Source of the DNA: Marinoscillum sp. 108
GTDB lineage: Bacteria; Bacteroidota; Bacteroidia; Cytophagales; Cyclobacteriaceae
Reading direction: 5' to 3'
Assembly: GCF_902506655.1 (NCBI RefSeq)
Contig: NZ_LR734808.1
Location: forward strand, 186,001 to 250,000
DNA length: 64,000 bases
Shown: one piece after another, positions 20,576 to 29,609 of the stretch
Numbering within the stretch: the stretch's first letter is position 1
Layout of the letters: every line of letters starts with the position of its first letter
Made by a program: the position numbers and the translations under genes
Notes under the pieces: generated by a model
Database searches by the model: none
The model's input: only the letters and a program-made list of their open reading frames with translations
What the model was told of the DNA's origin: nothing

Positions 20576-21889
20576 ATGAGGAATAGACGTATTTTGATCG
20601 TTACATATTATTGGCCACCAAGCGGGGGAGTGGGAGTACAGCGCTGGCTGCATTTTGCCAGGAACCTAAAGGAAATGGGTTGGGAGCCAATTGTTTATAC
20701 CCCGGAAAATGCACAATTTGATATTCGTGATGAGAGTCTCTTAGAAGACTGCAAGAATATTTCTGTAATAAGAAGAAAGATTTGGGAGCCCTTCACTCTT
20801 TTACATCAACTCACAGGAAATAGAAATCGAAATGCCATAAAACAGGGTTCTGCTCTGGAGAAATCTGACAAATCGTGGAAGGAGCAGTTAATCATTTGGA
20901 TACGCGGCAATCTATTTATACCGGATCCCCGGCTTTTTTGGGTACGACCTTCGGTAAGGTTTTTAAAAAAGGTGATTCTGGAAAAAGAGATAGAAACAAT
21001 TATTACTACAGGCCCGCCCCATTCCATGCATCTTATTGGACTCGGTATAAAGACTGGCTTACCTCAAGTCCAATGGCTGGCAGATTTTAGAGATCCCTGG
21101 TCTGATTGGGATCTACTGGACAAACTGAAAGTTGGAAGATTAGCAAAGTTCTTCCATAGATGGTTGGAAAACAAGGTCTTGAGGCGGGCCAATAAGATCC
21201 TTGTGACTTCCTCAGGTACTGCAAACCTGATGTTTAAAAAACATAATATAACTGCCGAGGTGATCACCAATGGAATAAATGAAACCTATGATTACCTCGG
21301 GAAACCGACTTCTTTGGCGGGTAAATTTGTTATTGGTTACTTTGGTATGCTGAATGAGGTGAGGAACCCGAAGGTTTTCTGGCAGGCATTAGAAGAGTTG
21401 TGCGAAGAGGATTCTACCTTTTTGAATTCCCTTGAAATTAGGATTGGTGGGATTATCAGCGAGAGCGTGAGCGATGAGTTGCAAGGCTATAAATTTGCCG
21501 AAAACATAAAATTCATGGGGTATTTACCCCATGGAAGTCTTTTTGAGGAATACACAGAATGTGACCTCCTCCTTCTCCTACAGAACAAGTCAGAAAACTC
21601 CAAATTTCTTATTCCGGCAAAGTTTTTTGAATATCTAGTGGCTGGCAGACCTATTTTGGGTTTAGGAGAGGTGCCCAGTGATTTAAGTGAGCTATTTTCG
21701 AACAGACAAATTGGTGTGTTTCTGTCGCACTATTCGTTCAATGAGATTAAGGAATTTTTAAGAACAGTTAGATCTGGCATTGAGAGCAATAAGGAGGATT
21801 ACATAAAACTGATAAGTCTGTACTCAAGAACCAATCAGGCTCGGAAACTGATACAGCTGCTAGAAACACAAATGGGTACAGAAACATGA
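20576..21889 (+). CDS. Glycosyltransferase, GT4-like
   Basis: A 437-residue GT-B-fold enzyme, first gene of the plus-strand glycan island. The N-terminal half opens with a Rossmann strand and glycine-rich loop (ILIVTYYWPPSGGVGVQRW) typical of acceptor domains in GT4-type enzymes. The C-terminal half carries KFVIGYFGMLNEVRNPKVFW and the donor-site segment IPAKFFEYLVAGRPILG, where the Glu before YLVAGRP fits the conserved retaining-GT glutamate. No signal peptide. Donor and acceptor unknown. Its stop overlaps the next start by four bases (ATGA). Confidence 0.85.
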   Translation: MRNRRILIVTYYWPPSGGVGVQRWLHFARNLKEMGWEPIVYTPENAQFDIRDESLLEDCKNISVIRRKIWEPFTLLHQLTGNRNRNAIKQGSALEKSDKSWKEQLIIWIRGNLFIPDPRLFWVRPSVRFLKKVILEKEIETIITTGPPHSMHLIGLGIKTGLPQVQWLADFRDPWSDWDLLDKLKVGRLAKFFHRWLENKVLRRANKILVTSSGTANLMFKKHNITAEVITNGINETYDYLGKPTSLAGKFVIGYFGMLNEVRNPKVFWQALEELCEEDSTFLNSLEIRIGGIISESVSDELQGYKFAENIKFMGYLPHGSLFEEYTECDLLLLLQNKSENSKFLIPAKFFEYLVAGRPILGLGEVPSDLSELFSNRQIGVFLSHYSFNEIKEFLRTVRSGIESNKEDYIKLISLYSRTNQARKLIQLLETQMGTET

Positions 21890-22980
21890 AAATTCCATTT
21901 TTTGATCTCAAGGGGCAGTACAGTCAAATTAAGCATGAAGTAGACGCTGAAATTCAGAAGGTTCTTTCAACGGGTCTTTTTATGGGGGGAGTTCCTGTTT
22001 TGGATTTTGAAAACGCGTTTTCAAAGTTCTTGGGAGCTGAACATTGTGTTTCTTGTGCAAATGGGACCGACGCTTTAGAAGTTGCTCTTAAAGCGCTGGG
22101 AATAGGGAAGGGTGATGAAGTGTTGGTGCCAGCGAATAGTTGGGTTTCCACAGCTGAAGCAGTGAATAATGTAGGTGCAGAGCCTGTGTTTGTAGATGTT
22201 ATCGATAGAGAGCATACTATTGACCCTTACCTGATTGAAGGAGCGGTTAATGAAAATACCAGGGCCATTATCGCGGTTCACTTATATGGATTACCTGCCC
22301 GCATGGATGAGATTCTCCCCATTGCGAAAAAGTATCATTTGAAGGTAATTGAGGATTGCGCTCAGGCTCATGGTGCGAAATTGAAGGGCAGGTCAGTTGG
22401 CACTTTTGGTGAAGTATCAACTTTTAGCTTTTATCCTACTAAAAACCTGGGTGCTTATGGGGATGCAGGAGCCATCATCACCAATGATACACTCCTTGCT
22501 GAGAAAATGCGACGGATTGCCAACCATGGACAGTTGAAAAAGCATGATCATGACCTGATAGGAAGAACAAGCAGGCTGGACACTTTGCAAGCGGCCATTC
22601 TCACCATAAAATTGAACTATCTTGACCAATGGGTCCAAAAGAGAAATCTTATTGCCAATTGGTATGATGCCTATCTAGGGGAGGGAATCGTCCGGCCAAT
22701 GAGCACTACCAATTTTTATCATGCCTTTCATCTTTATGTCATCCGAAGCAAGCATCGAGTGAAACTGATGAAACTTTTTGATGAGCTGGGGATTGGTTAT
22801 GGTATCCACTATCCGGTTCCATTACCCTATATAAAGTCATATTTATACAAGGGGTATCACCAGGAACAATTTCCAGCGGCCACCCTTTTGAGTAAAGAAA
22901 TTATTTCACTTCCATTATATCCAGAGCTAAGTGAGCAGGAGGTTAAATATATTTGTAATCAAGTCAATACAATTGGCTAA
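21886..22980 (+). CDS. DegT/DnrJ/EryC1/StrS-family sugar aminotransferase
   Basis: PLP-dependent aminotransferase acting on nucleotide-linked keto-sugars. The 364-residue protein has Asp157 (VIEDCAQAHGA) and the PLP lysine Lys186 in SFYPTKNLGAYGDAGA. This is the usual aminotransferase for amino-sugar or nonulosonic acid precursors, such as the PseC/LegC step. It is translationally coupled to the upstream glycosyltransferase. No 4,6-dehydratase (PseB/LegB-type) is seen in the window, so its keto-sugar substrate must be made by genes elsewhere. Confidence 0.93.
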   Translation: MKIPFFDLKGQYSQIKHEVDAEIQKVLSTGLFMGGVPVLDFENAFSKFLGAEHCVSCANGTDALEVALKALGIGKGDEVLVPANSWVSTAEAVNNVGAEPVFVDVIDREHTIDPYLIEGAVNENTRAIIAVHLYGLPARMDEILPIAKKYHLKVIEDCAQAHGAKLKGRSVGTFGEVSTFSFYPTKNLGAYGDAGAIITNDTLLAEKMRRIANHGQLKKHDHDLIGRTSRLDTLQAAILTIKLNYLDQWVQKRNLIANWYDAYLGEGIVRPMSTTNFYHAFHLYVIRSKHRVKLMKLFDELGIGYGIHYPVPLPYIKSYLYKGYHQEQFPAATLLSKEIISLPLYPELSEQEVKYICNQVNTIG

Positions 22981-23058
22981 TGGATCAATTTGAAGTATTT
23001 TTTCATGGGTCAAATGAAGGACAAACTCTATCCATATCTAAACCCTAAAACATTGTAA

Positions 23059-23883
23059 ATGAAAATATTGGACTGGAACCCTGGTAAAGACACTTTGCTA
23101 AAGGGGAAAGAGATTGAAGTACATGAGATTTATCATAGTCATTTGGCAAGCCAGGAATTGACGAAAGCTAAGATTCTGAAGAACTCCAAGCGACGGATGA
23201 GAGCCAGATCACTGGAGAAGGCGTTGAGAAAGATTGGCAAGCCGTTAAACGGAAAGGTACTTGAGCTTGGTGCCGGAGATGGTTGGTGTTCGGCCTATAT
23301 GTTGTCCAAATATTATGCTCAATTAAGTGAAATGCATACGATGGAGATTAATTCAGCGGCCATCAATCAATTAATACCAAAGGTTTTTGACGTAGTTGGG
23401 GTGAACACTGAAAAATCGACGCTCATTCATGGGAGTTTTAATAACATTCAACTGGAGAATTATTATGACTATGTCATTGTGATGGGGGCAATTCACCACT
23501 CTAGCAATTTGTATAGGACATTTATGGAGATTCAGAAAGCTTTGAAACCTGGAGGGTGGTTGATCGCACAGGAGCCATATATGGTGGACGATACCATGAA
23601 TTCCTTTTATACCAAACGGCAGAACAAGGTAGATAATTTTAAAGGGCTGACTGAGGTCAGGAATGGTGATAGGTCAGATATTTTTTTCAGGTCTTGCGAG
23701 TATCGGGCAGCAGCCTTTCATGCAGGGTTCGATTATCAGACTTTCGGAATTCCTGATTTATCACTTTGGTATTTTAAAAGGGCTCTTTTGGGGCAGAATG
23801 TTGGAAGGCCTAAGAATATGACTATTTATGCTCAGAAACCCCTTACGGGACTTCAATTACCAACTCCCACGGGATGGGAGTGA
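23059..23883 (+). CDS. Class I SAM-dependent methyltransferase
   Basis: A 274-residue Rossmann-fold methyltransferase. The AdoMet loop VLELGAGDG is at residues 67-75, an acidic motif II lies in MHTMEINSAAI, and motif IV resembles VIVMGAIHHS. It sits in the glycan island 78 bases after the aminotransferase, so O- or N-methylation of a sugar is the likely role. Substrate unknown. A basic N-terminal helix (KNSKRRMRARSLEKALRK) may contact the acceptor. Confidence 0.82.
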   Translation: MKILDWNPGKDTLLKGKEIEVHEIYHSHLASQELTKAKILKNSKRRMRARSLEKALRKIGKPLNGKVLELGAGDGWCSAYMLSKYYAQLSEMHTMEINSAAINQLIPKVFDVVGVNTEKSTLIHGSFNNIQLENYYDYVIVMGAIHHSSNLYRTFMEIQKALKPGGWLIAQEPYMVDDTMNSFYTKRQNKVDNFKGLTEVRNGDRSDIFFRSCEYRAAAFHAGFDYQTFGIPDLSLWYFKRALLGQNVGRPKNMTIYAQKPLTGLQLPTPTGWE

Positions 23884-23896
23884 AAAAGAATGAACT

Positions 23897-24655
23897 ATGA
23901 TGAATCAAGAACATTTTACAGTAGCTGATTTAAGTATTGATCAGGTGGTTGCTAAACTTGAGGAGTTTGGCTTGGTGGTGATTCCGAATTATCTGGGAGC
24001 TGATGATGTGGAAAAACTGTTTAAAGAATTTTATGAGTTTACCGAAACGGAGGATACACCGTACAAAAAGAATACTCCCTATTCTGAGGGAGTAGCCACC
24101 CGGGTAAAGCGTTTGGAGATGGATACGGAGAGATTCAAAAAAACGGAGGAAGTTTTTGGTTCGCAATTCATGAGAGAGATCACGGATAAATATTGGAGTA
24201 AAGAGGCTGGCTTAAATGAAGAGATCTTTGTGGTGAAAGATGTGCTGGGTAGTAAGCATGTTGCAAGTGATTTACACTTTGATGTTAAGCCTACACTCAA
24301 GTATTTTATTTACCTCAATGATACCACGGCTGAAAATGGGGCATTTAGCTGTGTGCCAGGATCTCATAAGGTGACACATAAACTAAGACAGAAGCATCAA
24401 GGAAAACTGAGTTATAAAAACCGGGAGTTAACCAGAGAATTGCCCGTGAGTGAAGAGGATGTGATACCTATTGAGGGAAGGGCGGGAACCCTTATCATTT
24501 TTTCCACAGAAGTGTTTCACAAAGCCGGGAACATTACCAAAGGAGAACGATATGTAATGAGAGGTCATAGTCGGACAGCGGAGCAGGATAGGATGGGTGA
24601 CACCACAGGACCATTTGAGCACCTGAAACGTAAGCTCAAATCTTTTCTTCGTTGA
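23897..24655 (+). CDS. Phytanoyl-CoA dioxygenase (PhyH) family protein
   Basis: A 252-residue non-haem Fe(II)/2-oxoglutarate oxygenase. The iron facial triad is visible as His127-x-Asp129 (SDLHFDVKP) and His208 (TEVFHKAGN). A conserved Arg in ERYVMRGHSR probably binds 2-oxoglutarate. PhyH-type enzymes in glycan clusters hydroxylate or oxidise sugars or acyl groups; here the substrate is unknown. It follows the methyltransferase by 13 bases, in the same unit. Confidence 0.85.
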   Translation: MMNQEHFTVADLSIDQVVAKLEEFGLVVIPNYLGADDVEKLFKEFYEFTETEDTPYKKNTPYSEGVATRVKRLEMDTERFKKTEEVFGSQFMREITDKYWSKEAGLNEEIFVVKDVLGSKHVASDLHFDVKPTLKYFIYLNDTTAENGAFSCVPGSHKVTHKLRQKHQGKLSYKNRELTRELPVSEEDVIPIEGRAGTLIIFSTEVFHKAGNITKGERYVMRGHSRTAEQDRMGDTTGPFEHLKRKLKSFLR

Positions 24656-24842: not shown

Positions 24843-27095
24843 ATGATCATAGATAGGAATATTTATAAGTACATTATTTATCAGGAAGAGACTATTCATA
24901 ACTCTCTAAAAAAAATTAACGAGCAGAAGGGTAGGATCCTTATCGTGGTGTCAGAGCGTGATATTGTGATGGGAGTAGCTACCAATGGAGACATTTTGAG
25001 GTGGCTGGTAGAAAATGACATGCCAGACCTTGGGCAGCCCATTTCCAGTATCGCCAATTCTAAATTTAAATTTGTTCGGGATACTGATCATCCGTCCAGA
25101 TTTCAGGAACTTTTGAAGGAAGTAAACTTCTTGCCTTTACTCAATGAAAGCAAGCAGTTACTCGGAGTGGTGCGGAAAGACCACCCTGCGGAGGGTATCG
25201 AAATAGGTAGTCATCACATTGGTAAGGGCCACCCTAGCTTTGTGATAGCCGAGATAGGAAACAACCATAATGGTGACATCTCTCTAGCCAAACAGTTGGT
25301 AGATGCTGCGGCATCAGCTGGGGCCAGTTGTGCTAAGTTTCAGATGCGAAACCTGAATTCGCTCTATGCTAATGCCGGAAAGGCAGATGATATAAAGGAA
25401 AATCTGGGATCTCAGTATACTTTAGACTTGCTTTCTAAATTTCAATTATCAAACGAGCAGCTGTTTGAGGTGTTTGATTACTGCAAGCTGAAAGGAATAT
25501 TACCCTTGTGCACACCCTGGGACACAGAAAGTCTGAATGCATTGGAAGAATATGGCATGCCGGCATACAAAGTTGCTTCTGCGGATTTGACTAATCACGG
25601 TTTACTACGCCAATTGGCCCTGACAGGAGTGCCTATTATCTGTTCTACAGGTATGAGTATTGAAAGTGAGATTATCGAAACCGAAAATCTACTTCAAAGC
25701 CTTGGTGTGCCGCACGTGATGCTGCACTGTAATTCCACTTACCCCGCGCCATTTGGAGATATTAACCTCAATTATCTTCACCAGCTGAAAGAGATCGTAA
25801 ATTGTCCGGTTGGATATTCTGGCCATGAGCGTGGTATTCATGTTTCTATTGCCGCCGTGGCCCTCGGAGCCCAGGTAATTGAGCGACACATTACCCTTGA
25901 CCGCACAATGGAAGGTAGCGACCATAAGGCAAGCTTGCTCCCAAAGGAGTTTGCAGAGATGGTGAAGGGAATCAGGGAGGTGGAGGAAAGTCTCGGAGCG
26001 AGGGAGGTGAGAAAGATTTCTCAGGGAGAGATGATCAATAGGGTCAATCTAGCCAAGAGTTTGATCATCAACCAACCCCTCAAAAAAGGAGAGTTGATTG
26101 AGGAACATATGGTTGAAGTGAAAAGTCCGGGAAGAGGATTGCAACCCAATTATCTCAATGCCCTAGTAGGTAAGAGAGCAAAGCACGATTTTAATCAATA
26201 TGACTTTTTTTATCCCAGTGATATCGAAGAGGAAGAGGTAGTGAAGAGGTCATATAAGTTCAATCGTCCTTGGGGCATCCCAGTAAGATATCATGATTTC
26301 AAAGAGATTATAGAAGGGACAAATGCAGACCTGGTTGAATTCCACCTGAGTTATAAAGATTTGGAGGTGGATATTCGGCAGTTCGTTGACGAACAACTGG
26401 ATTTGGATTTTGTAGTTCATAGCCCTGAATTATTTGAAGGTGATCACACCCTTGACCTTTGTTCTTTGGACGAGACATACAGGCAGAGGTCTATCGAAGA
26501 ATTACAGAGGGTAATAGAGGTCACCAAGCAATTACGACCATATTTTAAGCGGTCGGTAAAACCCTTAATCGTTACTAATGTAGGGGGATTTACAAGTCAG
26601 GGGTTTCTGACTGAACAGGAGCGTATCAAACGAATGAGGATCCTGGAGGCTAGCCTGAAAGAGTTGGATACAGAAGGAGTTGAATTGATCCCTCAAACCA
26701 TGCCTCCATTTCCCTGGCATTTTGGTGGACAGCAGTATCATAATTTGTTTGTTTCGGCTGGAGAAATCGCCGATTTCTGTCAGCGGAATGATATGCGAAT
26801 TTGTTTGGATACTTCTCATTCTAAGCTGGCGTGTACCCACTACAAGTGGTCTTTTCATCAATTTTTAGAAGAAGTGGTGCCTTATACTGCCCATATGCAT
26901 TTTGCTGATTCTGAAAATACCGGAGGTGAAGGATTGCAGATTGGAGAGGGCGAGGTGGATTATCATGCCGTTGGAGAAGTGATTAACAGGTTAAATCCCA
27001 ACGCTTCATTCATTCCGGAAATATGGCAGGGTCATGAAAATAGGGGTGAAGGATTTTGGATAGCGCTCGAACGGCTTGAGCATTTGATCAACTGA
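24843..27095 (+). CDS. CBS-NeuB-SAF-TIM barrel fusion, nonulosonic acid synthase-like
   Basis: A 750-residue multidomain enzyme. Residues ~1-118 form a CBS-domain pair like those in some nonulosonate enzymes (PtmE-type). Residues ~128-385 are a NeuB/SpsE-type PEP-condensing synthase with FVIAEIGNNHNGD, PLCTPWDTESL, CNSTYPAP, VGYSGHERG and the metal-binding stretch IERHITLDRTMEGSDH. Residues ~400-460 are a SAF antifreeze-like cap that normally closes the partner active site. Residues ~470-750 are a xylose-isomerase/AP-endonuclease-2-like TIM barrel with LDTSHSKLA and HMHFADSENTGGEGLQIGEG metal-ligand patterns. It probably condenses a hexosamine-type sugar with phosphoenolpyruvate. The barrel could epimerise or isomerise the substrate, which would replace a separate NeuC-like step. 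The exact product is unknown. Confidence 0.88.
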   Translation: MIIDRNIYKYIIYQEETIHNSLKKINEQKGRILIVVSERDIVMGVATNGDILRWLVENDMPDLGQPISSIANSKFKFVRDTDHPSRFQELLKEVNFLPLLNESKQLLGVVRKDHPAEGIEIGSHHIGKGHPSFVIAEIGNNHNGDISLAKQLVDAAASAGASCAKFQMRNLNSLYANAGKADDIKENLGSQYTLDLLSKFQLSNEQLFEVFDYCKLKGILPLCTPWDTESLNALEEYGMPAYKVASADLTNHGLLRQLALTGVPIICSTGMSIESEIIETENLLQSLGVPHVMLHCNSTYPAPFGDINLNYLHQLKEIVNCPVGYSGHERGIHVSIAAVALGAQVIERHITLDRTMEGSDHKASLLPKEFAEMVKGIREVEESLGAREVRKISQGEMINRVNLAKSLIINQPLKKGELIEEHMVEVKSPGRGLQPNYLNALVGKRAKHDFNQYDFFYPSDIEEEEVVKRSYKFNRPWGIPVRYHDFKEIIEGTNADLVEFHLSYKDLEVDIRQFVDEQLDLDFVVHSPELFEGDHTLDLCSLDETYRQRSIEELQRVIEVTKQLRPYFKRSVKPLIVTNVGGFTSQGFLTEQERIKRMRILEASLKELDTEGVELIPQTMPPFPWHFGGQQYHNLFVSAGEIADFCQRNDMRICLDTSHSKLACTHYKWSFHQFLEEVVPYTAHMHFADSENTGGEGLQIGEGEVDYHAVGEVINRLNPNASFIPEIWQGHENRGEGFWIALERLEHLIN

Positions 27096-27100
27096 GGGGT

Positions 27101-27865
27101 ATGAACAAATTATCGAAAGTGGTTAGGCTGGGGCTTAACAAATTTATGAACTACAATCGGCCGGCAGGTTGGTTTTTTTTGAACTTTGTGCGGGTATTTC
27201 GTGCTGGAGGTTGTGAGTTTAACTTGTCAGAAAATCTATTTCCAAGTGGGTATTACTCTCGATTTCTTTTCAAGACTTACGAGAGTCCGGAAATCGCTTT
27301 GATGAAAAAATATTTAGACCCTGGAGATTCGATCATCGAACTTGGAGCTTGTATTGGGGTTGTTTCCTGTATTTCTAATAAAATGTTGGACCATCCCGAG
27401 AATCATGTGGTGGTTGAGGCTAATCCAGACCTGATAACGGAAATAGAAAAAAACAGAGCAAATAATCACTGCCACTTTTCACTTGAAAACGCACTCATTT
27501 CTAATCAGGCGTTCGAAACTTTTTACACCTATAATATTGCTATATCTGGATCATTGCAAAAGAAGGTGCATAATCCAAAGCTGGTGTTGTCCAGAGAGGT
27601 TCAGGTAAAAGGTGTGGGCTTTGAAAGCTTACAGGCCAAATATGGGTTGAAGTTTAATGTTCTTCTCATGGATATAGAAGGAGCAGAATATACTTTGATA
27701 GAAGAGAATCTTGAGTTTTTGAAAGGTTTGCGGCTTTTGATCATCGAGTTTCACCCTAATATTATGGAGCATCTTGATACAGAAAAGTATCATCGGTATT
27801 TGGAGGAAATAGGTTTTGAGTTCGCTGAGAAAATTGAAAAGACAAGTGTTTATATCCGATCATGA
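27101..27865 (+). CDS. FkbM family methyltransferase
   Basis: A 254-residue AdoMet-dependent methyltransferase. It has the binding loop IIELGACIGVVSC near residues 84-96, VVEANPDL, and the FkbM signature LLMDIEGAEYTLI. FkbM enzymes usually O-methylate sugars. It starts five bases after the NeuB fusion gene and overlaps the next start by four bases, so it is co-translated with the CMP-sugar synthetase. Methylation of the nonulosonate-like sugar or a neighbouring residue is likely. Confidence 0.88.
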   Translation: MNKLSKVVRLGLNKFMNYNRPAGWFFLNFVRVFRAGGCEFNLSENLFPSGYYSRFLFKTYESPEIALMKKYLDPGDSIIELGACIGVVSCISNKMLDHPENHVVVEANPDLITEIEKNRANNHCHFSLENALISNQAFETFYTYNIAISGSLQKKVHNPKLVLSREVQVKGVGFESLQAKYGLKFNVLLMDIEGAEYTLIEENLEFLKGLRLLIIEFHPNIMEHLDTEKYHRYLEEIGFEFAEKIEKTSVYIRS

Positions 27866-28578
27866 TGAAAAATTTGGCTATTATTCCTGCCCGTGGAGGG
27901 TCGAAAAGATTACTTAAAAAAAATCTGAGGTTGCTCAATGGGAAGCCATTGGTTCAGTATACGCTGGAGGCGGTAGTTGATTCAGGAGTATTTGATACGG
28001 TCATATTGTCTTCAGATGACGATGATATTCTGGGTATTGCGGGTAACGTAAAAGGTGTGACCCCTCAAAAGCGGGAGGCTGAGATGGCCACAGATAAGCG
28101 GAAAGTCATCGATTTGATCAAGGATATTGCTGAGCGTGATGAAGTAAAGAATACCTTTGATACCATTGGGTTGTTCTTACCTACTTGTCCGTTTCGGACG
28201 GCCAGGCATATAAAGGAAGGGTTTGCCTTATTGACGAGGGAAGATTATTCCGTGGTAAGTATTACTGATATGTCTGATCCGGTTCAGCTCACTCTGTCGA
28301 TGAATGATGAGAATTTGATCAACCCTGAAGCTGTTTTAAGTCCTTCACCACTGGTGACCGGGCAGACGCGATCTCAGGATTTTGAGAAAATATATAGAGT
28401 CAATGGTGGTTTTTATATTGCATGGCTCGATAAATTCAGACAAAAAGCAAATTTTTTCGATGGCCGGGTGAAAGGATATTATATAGATAAATTGCACTCC
28501 GTAGATATAGATTATGAGTTGGATTTTGAATGGGCAGAATACCTCCTCAGAAAAAATCACCTCTCACTGAAGGATTGA
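27862..28578 (+). CDS. CMP-nonulosonate (acylneuraminate) cytidylyltransferase
   Basis: Activates a nonulosonic acid to its CMP form. The 238-residue protein opens with the nucleotide-binding motif IPARGGSKRL at residues 8-17, followed by KNL and the SSDDDDI segment; the substrate loop FLPTCPFRTARHI corresponds to LQPTSPLR in NeuA-like enzymes. The C-terminal acidic Asp motif is present as VDIDYELDFEWAE. Two adjacent Met codons (27862 and 27865) are possible starts, the first overlapping the FkbM stop. With the NeuB fusion it defines the core nonulosonate module. Confidence 0.9.
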   Translation: MMKNLAIIPARGGSKRLLKKNLRLLNGKPLVQYTLEAVVDSGVFDTVILSSDDDDILGIAGNVKGVTPQKREAEMATDKRKVIDLIKDIAERDEVKNTFDTIGLFLPTCPFRTARHIKEGFALLTREDYSVVSITDMSDPVQLTLSMNDENLINPEAVLSPSPLVTGQTRSQDFEKIYRVNGGFYIAWLDKFRQKANFFDGRVKGYYIDKLHSVDIDYELDFEWAEYLLRKNHLSLKD

Positions 28579-28652: not shown

Positions 28653-29609
28653 ATGAACAACAAACTGATTGATTTGAAGAATAGAATACAGGGGCCTGTG
28701 TACTCTGTAATGACCCCTTTTCTGAAAAACGAGGAGATAGATTTTCTGTCTTTGGAAAATTCCCTTCAGAGAATATACGATGGGGGTGGACGAATTTTCT
28801 ATGTGATGGGATACAATAGTAGATTCAGTGAGTTGTCATGGGAGGAAATAAGGCTCCTCAATAGTTTTGTTACTCAAAAAGTGAAAGCCATCGACTCTAA
28901 CAACATCATGATTGTGGCGGATCCCCTTCACTGCTCTACGAAGATATCCATCGAATTTGCTCGTCATGCACAGGAGATTGGGGCTGATTTGATTTCTATT
29001 ATCAATAGGGAGAAATTTTACTCAGAAGAGCAGATTTACAGGCATTACAAGATGATTGCCGATGCGGTAGATATTGGCATATTGGTGCATGAAATGCCCT
29101 TTTTGAATGGGTATGGCGGTCCTGTTGTTAATTGGCCAATTTCTCTACTGGATCGTGTGGTTGATATTCCCAATGTGATTGCAGTGAAGGAAGATGCCAA
29201 GGATGATGCTTTCTCCAAGCAGGTGATAGAAAAAATAAAGGATAGAGCGGCTATTATTATCTCCGGAGGAGGTAAGCGGCAATGGCTGCAGTTTGCCGAG
29301 GTGGGGTGTCAGTCATGGCTCAACGGCATAGGGGTATTTGATCCTCGTCTGGCGTCCAAGTTTTGGGAATATTATCAAGCCGGAAACAAGGAGGCTTACA
29401 TGAGAATTATCAATGAGATTGAAGTTCCCTTTTTTGAAAAAGGGGTGAAGAAATATGGTTGGCATTTGACCATCAAAGCGGCCATGGAGGCCCTGGGCGT
29501 GATTCACCGATATGAAAGGATGCCGTTGATGGAGTTAGGAGCAGAGGAGGCTATGGATGTAAAAAGATTGATTGAATCACTGCCGGTTGACGAGGTTGTT
29601 TCCCAATGA
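28653..29609 (+). CDS. Divergent DapA/NanA-family Schiff-base lyase
   Basis: A 318-residue TIM-barrel protein of the dihydrodipicolinate synthase/N-acetylneuraminate lyase family. The Schiff-base lysine appears conserved as Lys179 (NVIAVKEDAKD). The catalytic tyrosine of the usual YN(V/I)P motif is replaced: VHEMP puts His146 there. The GTTGE carboxylate-binding loop reads GYNSRFSE at about 53-60. It could be a pyruvate aldolase/lyase with altered substrate, or a non-catalytic relative. It lies in the nonulosonate island between the CMP-synthetase and a glycosyltransferase-like gene, so it may act on the 2-keto acid sugar. Product not predictable. Confidence 0.82.
   Translation: MNNKLIDLKNRIQGPVYSVMTPFLKNEEIDFLSLENSLQRIYDGGGRIFYVMGYNSRFSELSWEEIRLLNSFVTQKVKAIDSNNIMIVADPLHCSTKISIEFARHAQEIGADLISIINREKFYSEEQIYRHYKMIADAVDIGILVHEMPFLNGYGGPVVNWPISLLDRVVDIPNVIAVKEDAKDDAFSKQVIEKIKDRAAIIISGGGKRQWLQFAEVGCQSWLNGIGVFDPRLASKFWEYYQAGNKEAYMRIINEIEVPFFEKGVKKYGWHLTIKAAMEALGVIHRYERMPLMELGAEEAMDVKRLIESLPVDEVVSQ

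Follow-up and report, generated by a model that had tools for sequence, protein, structure and literature searches.

A CBS–NeuB–SAF–barrel fusion protein of Marinoscillum sp. 108 as a probable KDN-type nonulosonic-acid synthase

Sialic-acid synthases are usually annotated from sequence as makers of Neu5Ac, legionaminic acid or pseudaminic acid. In the window analyzed here, a 64,000-nucleotide stretch of the Marinoscillum sp. 108 genome (contig NZ_LR734808.1), a single open reading frame (ORF) carries a NeuB-type synthase between a CBS region and a second TIM barrel. What does such a protein make, and what does the additional barrel do? We favor the view that the fusion acts as a KDN-type nonulosonic-acid synthase in the making of a surface polysaccharide and that its barrel gives this pathway a second sugar site, one that binds metal, a reading that we consider probable as a whole.

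Domain order and spread of the fusion family

A Pfam profile search placed CBS at residues 12–56, NeuB at 152–387, SAF at 406–460 and AP_endonuc_2 at 495–733, bearing out the order CBS, NeuB, SAF and xylose-isomerase-like barrel proposed in a preliminary description of this DNA (Table 1). NeuB (272.4 bits) and SAF (28.8 bits) scored above their cut-offs, the barrel matched AP_endonuc_2 with an E-value of 2e-22 (80.5 bits), and the CBS match reached 23.8 bits, 0.2 below its cut-off of 24. An AlphaFold2 (AF2) model of the whole protein, built with 55 relatives, had a pLDDT of 90.0 and a pTM of 0.72, the latter low for domain placement. Two other PF03102 matches in the genome reached only 30–32 bits, and no second NeuB was found there.

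Table 1. Features of the fusion gene and its surroundings in the window.
Feature	Position	Strand	Basis
Upstream glycan genes: glycosyltransferase, DegT aminotransferase, methyltransferase, PhyH	20576..24655	+	Profile matches
Four-domain fusion ORF	24843..27095	+	ATG start, 750 aa; 80 co-linear relatives
CBS region, residues 1–112	24843..25178	+	Pfam CBS 12–56; model
Nucleotide motif G44-V-A-T47-N-G-D50 of the CBS region	24972–24992	+	Form Ghx[T/S]xxD
NeuB catalytic barrel, about residues 119–392	25197..26018	+	PF03102, E 4e-81
SAF (antifreeze-like) domain, about residues 404–462	26052..26228	+	PF08666
Ser428, the counterpart of NeuB Arg314	26124..26126	+	Alignments
AP_endonuc_2 / xylose-isomerase-like TIM barrel, about residues 473–750	26259..27092	+	PF01261
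Gln618, closing strand beta-5, where ketose 3-epimerases have their first catalytic/metal Glu	26694..26696	+	Alignments
Asp656 and His659 (LDTSH), strand beta-6	26808..26819	+	80/80 each
His686 (AHMHFAD), strand beta-7	26898..26900	+	79/80
Glu726 (PEIWQGH), strand beta-8	27018..27020	+	80/80
Accessory FkbM methyltransferase, lying between fusion and neuA	27101..27865	+	TIGR01444, PF05050
NeuA-like CMP-sugar (cytidylyl) transferase	27862..28578	+	PF02348; PseF-like below cut-off
DapA/NAL-family lyase-like gene	28653..29609	+	PF00701; partner only in the window's own sub-clade

Scanning a single genome for each species yielded 80 relatives that are 49–63% identical to the protein and match it from essentially residue 1 to the end; these full-length, co-linear relatives rule out a fusion by chance or mis-assembly. 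Their hosts include cyanobacteria, Bacillota, Pseudomonadota, Bacteroidota, Actinomycetota, Spirochaetota and Bdellovibrionota, among others. The gene is rare where present, occurring in 3 of 395 sampled genomes of the Marinoscillum phylum, 24 of 386 cyanobacteria and 5 of 30 Serratia relatives. Every barrel of the family in these three sets sits in an ORF of 617–892 aa, and an unfused barrel (a "Rosetta stone" order) was found in none of the 386 cyanobacterial, 395 own-phylum and 30 Serratia-relative genomes.

In the family tree the phyla are intermingled in places. The patchy, phylum-mixing spread suggests horizontal transfer of surface-sugar genes, a pattern that paralogy or contaminated bins can mimic. 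The Marinoscillum protein belongs to a sub-clade (support 97) with relatives from Flavobacteriales, Bdellovibrionales, SAR324 and Cycloclasticus, distinct from the sub-clade of Serratia. L042 and L043, one an Actinomycetota bin and the other a genome of Sphingomonas, encode identical fusion proteins, which is likely explained by a contaminating contig in the Actinomycetota bin. No DNA match to the Serratia fusion gene was found in E. coli genomes.

A NeuB-SAF-barrel protein lacking the CBS region is encoded in two genomes from the Marinoscillum phylum (L106 and L107) and on four IMG/VR contigs (L110–L113). The core union is therefore NeuB-SAF-barrel, with CBS as an added part. In L107 (5749–10299, minus strand) and L106 (6831–11408, minus strand), overlapping genes form an operon in the order hddC, CBS-hddA, NeuB-SAF-barrel and gmhA; here the CBS region is joined instead to the HddA-like heptokinase encoded just upstream, and GDP-heptose genes surround the CBS-less synthase. 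The IMG/VR contigs are 41–102 kb long and labelled viral, and 22 kb of one (L114) looks almost entirely composed of sugar genes, a reason to treat the viral label with reserve. A GT29 sialyltransferase gene lies near the CBS-less fusion in two of the viral-labelled contigs checked.

The first half of the CBS region carries the form Ghx[T/S]xxD, the usual nucleotide motif of CBS domains, with D50 and T/S47 conserved in all 80 relatives and G44 in 78. The second half had no Pfam match, and the AF2 model shows strands and a helix at residues 84–111, as a second half would. For the earlier proposal that a CBS pair could sense nucleotides, the binding motif G44-T47-D50 is in place; the candidate pair comprises one sub-cut-off match and a second half suggested by the model. 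Feedback by CMP-KDN through this site is only a suggestion.

The synthase half and its acceptor sugar

Foldseek matched the NeuB half to 1xuu/4ipj, the structures of Neisseria meningitidis NeuB (SiaC), which likewise combines a PEP-dependent NeuB barrel with an SAF domain but is about 29% identical and has neither a CBS region nor a second barrel. The PEP and metal residues E137, Q167, T224, K243, S326, H328, E347, H349 and D360, aligned with E25, Q55, T110, K129, S213, H215, E234, H236 and D247 of the meningococcal enzyme, are all present in 80 of 80 relatives. Meningococcal N184 and F112 are replaced by Ser298 and Trp226, and Arg314 by Ser428, a position with Ser in 79 relatives and Cys in one. 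In N. meningitidis NeuB, activity requires Arg314 of the SAF domain, which positions the N-acetyl group of ManNAc, and mannose is not a substrate (PMC6795526). As judged from these alignments, the change to Ser428 fits, and does not prove, an acceptor without an N-acetyl group, such as mannose; other acceptors able to forgo the Arg314 contact would fit too.

The supply of acceptor sugars points in the same direction. N. meningitidis obtains ManNAc from NeuC, the hydrolysing UDP-GlcNAc 2-epimerase, whereas no NeuC- or WecB-like gene was found genome-wide at E 0.01 in Marinoscillum, the genome being 99.7% complete and control genomes giving matches; the absence of NeuC noted earlier thus extends to the whole genome. 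One ManA-type mannose-6-phosphate isomerase homologue is present, and NanE gave only a sub-cut-off match inside a 513-aa ORF. A single AGE-family epimerase gene (L086, 1459–2628, minus strand) was considered as a source of ManNAc and set aside: it adjoins a gene that by eye resembles a mannan-degrading glycosidase, and from this neighbor it is likely a mannobiose-type enzyme of mannan use. Among 38 other fusion-bearing genomes, a true NeuC above cut-off occurs in 4 and is missing from 34, so NeuC is not a requirement of the fusion.

A relative with a known product context comes from Serratia marcescens. In its KL1 and KL2 capsules, neuA and neuB open the variable region, and NeuB is described as bearing an extra COG1082 domain; without neuB, sialic acid falls four-fold and the capsule is lost, plasmid-borne neuB restores sialic acid, and the capsule contains KDN over Neu5Ac at about 20:1 (PMC9000132). 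Two close Serratia relatives (L044 and L108), on which orthology to NeuB of S. marcescens UMH9 rests, carry polysaccharide export genes, then neuA, then a CBS-NeuB-SAF-barrel protein of 746 aa, and that of L044 aligns with the Marinoscillum protein over its full length at 52% identity. The KL1/KL2 protein resembles the fusion in its NeuB family, its COG1082-type barrel and its neuA partner, although the cluster around the Marinoscillum gene is another one, containing FkbM and DapA-like genes; the Serratia report mentions neither a CBS domain nor a test of the barrel (PMC9000132).

Because KDN is mannose-derived, NeuC is not needed for it. The missing NeuC is thus most likely due to a mannose-based (KDN) product and not to a built-in substitute for NeuC acting on N-acetylhexosamines. 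Known KDN-9-phosphate synthases, BT1714 of Bacteroides thetaiotaomicron and that of Prymnesium parvum, resemble the fusion, by description, in the proposed chemistry on mannose-6-phosphate and PEP; they have no described fused barrel or CBS region, and Bacteroides uses a separate phosphatase (PMC6200933).

The C-terminal barrel and its altered metal site

The barrel modelled alone had a pLDDT of 93.8 and a pTM of 0.92. Its leading structural matches are ketose 3-epimerases at Z 23–25 (3wqo at Z 24.7, rmsd 2.7 over 244 aligned residues; a T. maritima ketose 3-epimerase at Z 24.4; UlaE at Z 23.0), and endonuclease IV follows at Z 22. Together with the PF01261 match, these confirm the TIM-barrel relationship; the fold by itself does not reveal the reaction.

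D-psicose and D-tagatose 3-epimerases have a Glu-Asp-His-Glu metal site in which both glutamates, including Glu150/Glu152, transfer protons (PMC7008614). The fusion shares the fold and three of the four ligands with D-tagatose/D-psicose 3-epimerase and UlaE, at 15–21% identity, and reads Gln618-Asp656-His686-Glu726, so the tetrad is not matched. The position of Gln618 was assigned by alignment to the Glu of 3wqo, by alignment to own-genome paralogues (L087 and L094, the only single paralogues to give useful hhalign alignments, the others being weak) and from strand ends in the model. E614 was rejected as the missing Glu, since it opens the strand and just 70 of 80 relatives have Glu there, the ligand position being Gln618 at the strand end. 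Gln occupies 618 in 80 of 80 relatives, so the barrel does not have the complete site of a known isomerase. The motifs LDTSHSK (D656, H659) and HMHFADSENTGGEG (H684, H686, D689, E696), described previously as metal-binding and intact, are indeed present and kept in 79–80 of 80 relatives; what departs is the remaining ligand, a Glu in the epimerases and Gln618 here. Two own-genome AP_endonuc_2 paralogues, L092 (C1, about 2341341) and L093 (about 2005455), also align with Gln at the first catalytic Glu, so this substitution need not mean a dead site. In view of Gln618 we refrain from naming the barrel an isomerase.

Several functions of the barrel have to be weighed. An isomerase on a hexose or hexose phosphate is possible, and we regard with some reserve the idea that the barrel is an isomerase or epimerase that makes the NeuB acceptor within the same protein and so replaces NeuC; its likeliest form would convert a ketose or aldose to mannose or mannose-6-phosphate, not ManNAc. 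The nearest folds (D-tagatose, D-psicose and L-xylulose-5-phosphate 3-epimerases, Z 23–25), the conserved D656, H659, H686 and E726 and the lack of NeuC speak for it, but the Glu150/Glu152 position, one of the two catalytic glutamates of the epimerases (PMC7008614), is the invariant Gln618, the genome has a ManA homologue, and the substrate predicted from Serratia is mannose-based, making NeuC unnecessary anyway. The version proposed earlier, an N-acetylhexosamine isomerase in place of NeuC, is not supported in that form, in view of the chiefly KDN product of the Serratia relative (PMC9000132), Ser428, Gln618 and the occurrence of the fusion both with NeuC (4 of 38 genomes) and without it (34).

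A phosphatase or hydrolase, which would set KDN free from its 9-phosphate, or mannose from an activated or a phosphorylated form, is somewhat unlikely. The Bacteroides and Prymnesium pathways run from Man-6-P to KDN-9-P and require a phosphatase, although housekeeping phosphatases, as proposed for Prymnesium, can suffice (PMC6200933). A simple motif scan, limited as such, revealed no HAD phosphatase pattern next to the fusion, and no short HAD-type phosphatase on its strand in the flanks of the loci when the pattern was relaxed. Endonuclease IV, which cleaves phosphodiesters, has the same fold (Z 22); against this, Gln618 also takes the place of its bridging Glu.

We think it unlikely that the barrel is no longer an enzyme and serves as a metal- or sugar-binding scaffold or an allosteric part shaping the NeuB dimer: the replacement of the first catalytic Glu by Gln in 80 of 80 relatives and the obligate fusion in the genomes searched would agree with this, but the three ligands, H659 and many further residues (among them H484, H501, H526, W625 and H731) are invariant in the 80 relatives, which span many phyla, beyond what a dead scaffold leads one to expect. 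A conventional synthase of Neu5Ac, legionaminic acid or pseudaminic acid to which unrelated domains have been added is more improbable still, since NeuB_NnaB (TIGR03569), although the best NCBIfam match (321.8 bits), falls short of its equivalog cut-off of 399.65, as does PseI (TIGR03586; 244.4 of 340.25 bits), and Arg314 is lost, NeuC is absent and the Serratia relative is tied mostly to KDN.

Neighboring genes and a proposed pathway

NeuA is the only common neighbor of the fusion, found by clustering in 59 of 75 loci and within 2 kb in 55 of 75, and homologues of the NeuA-like gene of the window occur in 52 loci. Among the 100 nearest other neighbors, methyltransferases and Gfo/Idh oxidoreductases are commonest, and four are matches to alpha-2,8-polysialyltransferase PF07388; these sialyltransferase-type genes beside relatives, PF07388 and GT29, speak for the KDN-type reading. 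Copies of the DapA-like gene, 54–63% identical, stand beside fusion and neuA in L029 (13674–14636), L051 (12973–13926) and L068 (3542–4498), and L080 (4931–5869) has one at 30% identity. The gene retains the Schiff-base Lys (K179) and has an invariant His146 where DHDPS has its active-site Tyr, changes that probably indicate a new specificity on a keto acid. A further product could arise from it or be altered by it, so for Marinoscillum KDN is a less certain end product than for Serratia.

The KDN-type reading is supported by the Serratia precedent, the NeuB catalytic residues, the loss of Arg314, the lack of NeuC and WecB, the presence of ManA, the NeuA partner and the constant fusion of the barrel. 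It is weakened by the separation of the Marinoscillum and Serratia sub-clades and by the DapA-like gene, which could alter the product. For the barrel part, Gln618 makes neither a standard isomerase nor an endonuclease-IV-like hydrolase likely, and ManA makes a barrel supplying mannose-6-phosphate redundant.

Under the KDN-type reading, the NeuB-SAF half would condense PEP with mannose or mannose-6-phosphate, not ManNAc, to KDN or KDN-9-phosphate, and the adjoining NeuA would convert the acid to the CMP sugar. We lean toward a barrel that would handle a phosphorylated hexose or KDN-9-phosphate beside the synthase, by dephosphorylation or by supplying the acceptor hexose, and the CBS region would bind a nucleotide and tune the synthase; fusion and NeuA would then form a self-contained two-gene cassette. 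By analogy with Serratia we infer the same KDN product for Marinoscillum, and the barrel chemistry and CBS role, too, are inferred. A bolder version, which we put forward tentatively, is that a single protein would lead all the way to free KDN: NeuB would make the acid, the Gln-site barrel, possibly by chemistry undescribed for its superfamily, would supply or dephosphorylate the sugar, and the CBS region would give feedback, for example by CMP-KDN, in a mobile two-gene cassette yielding CMP-KDN from central metabolism.

This kind of protein had already been noticed in Serratia and is little studied; new here are the breadth of the family, the CBS region together with the variants that lack it, the finding that the fusion is obligate in the genomes searched, and the residues Ser428 and Gln618. 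If the KDN-type reading is true, this large and apparently widely transferred clade, with its obligate second barrel and one KDN-linked member, would make KDN output predictable in cyanobacteria, nitrifiers and other environmental bacteria. The family also raises the question of what role is played by a 3-epimerase-fold domain whose catalytic Glu is always Gln.
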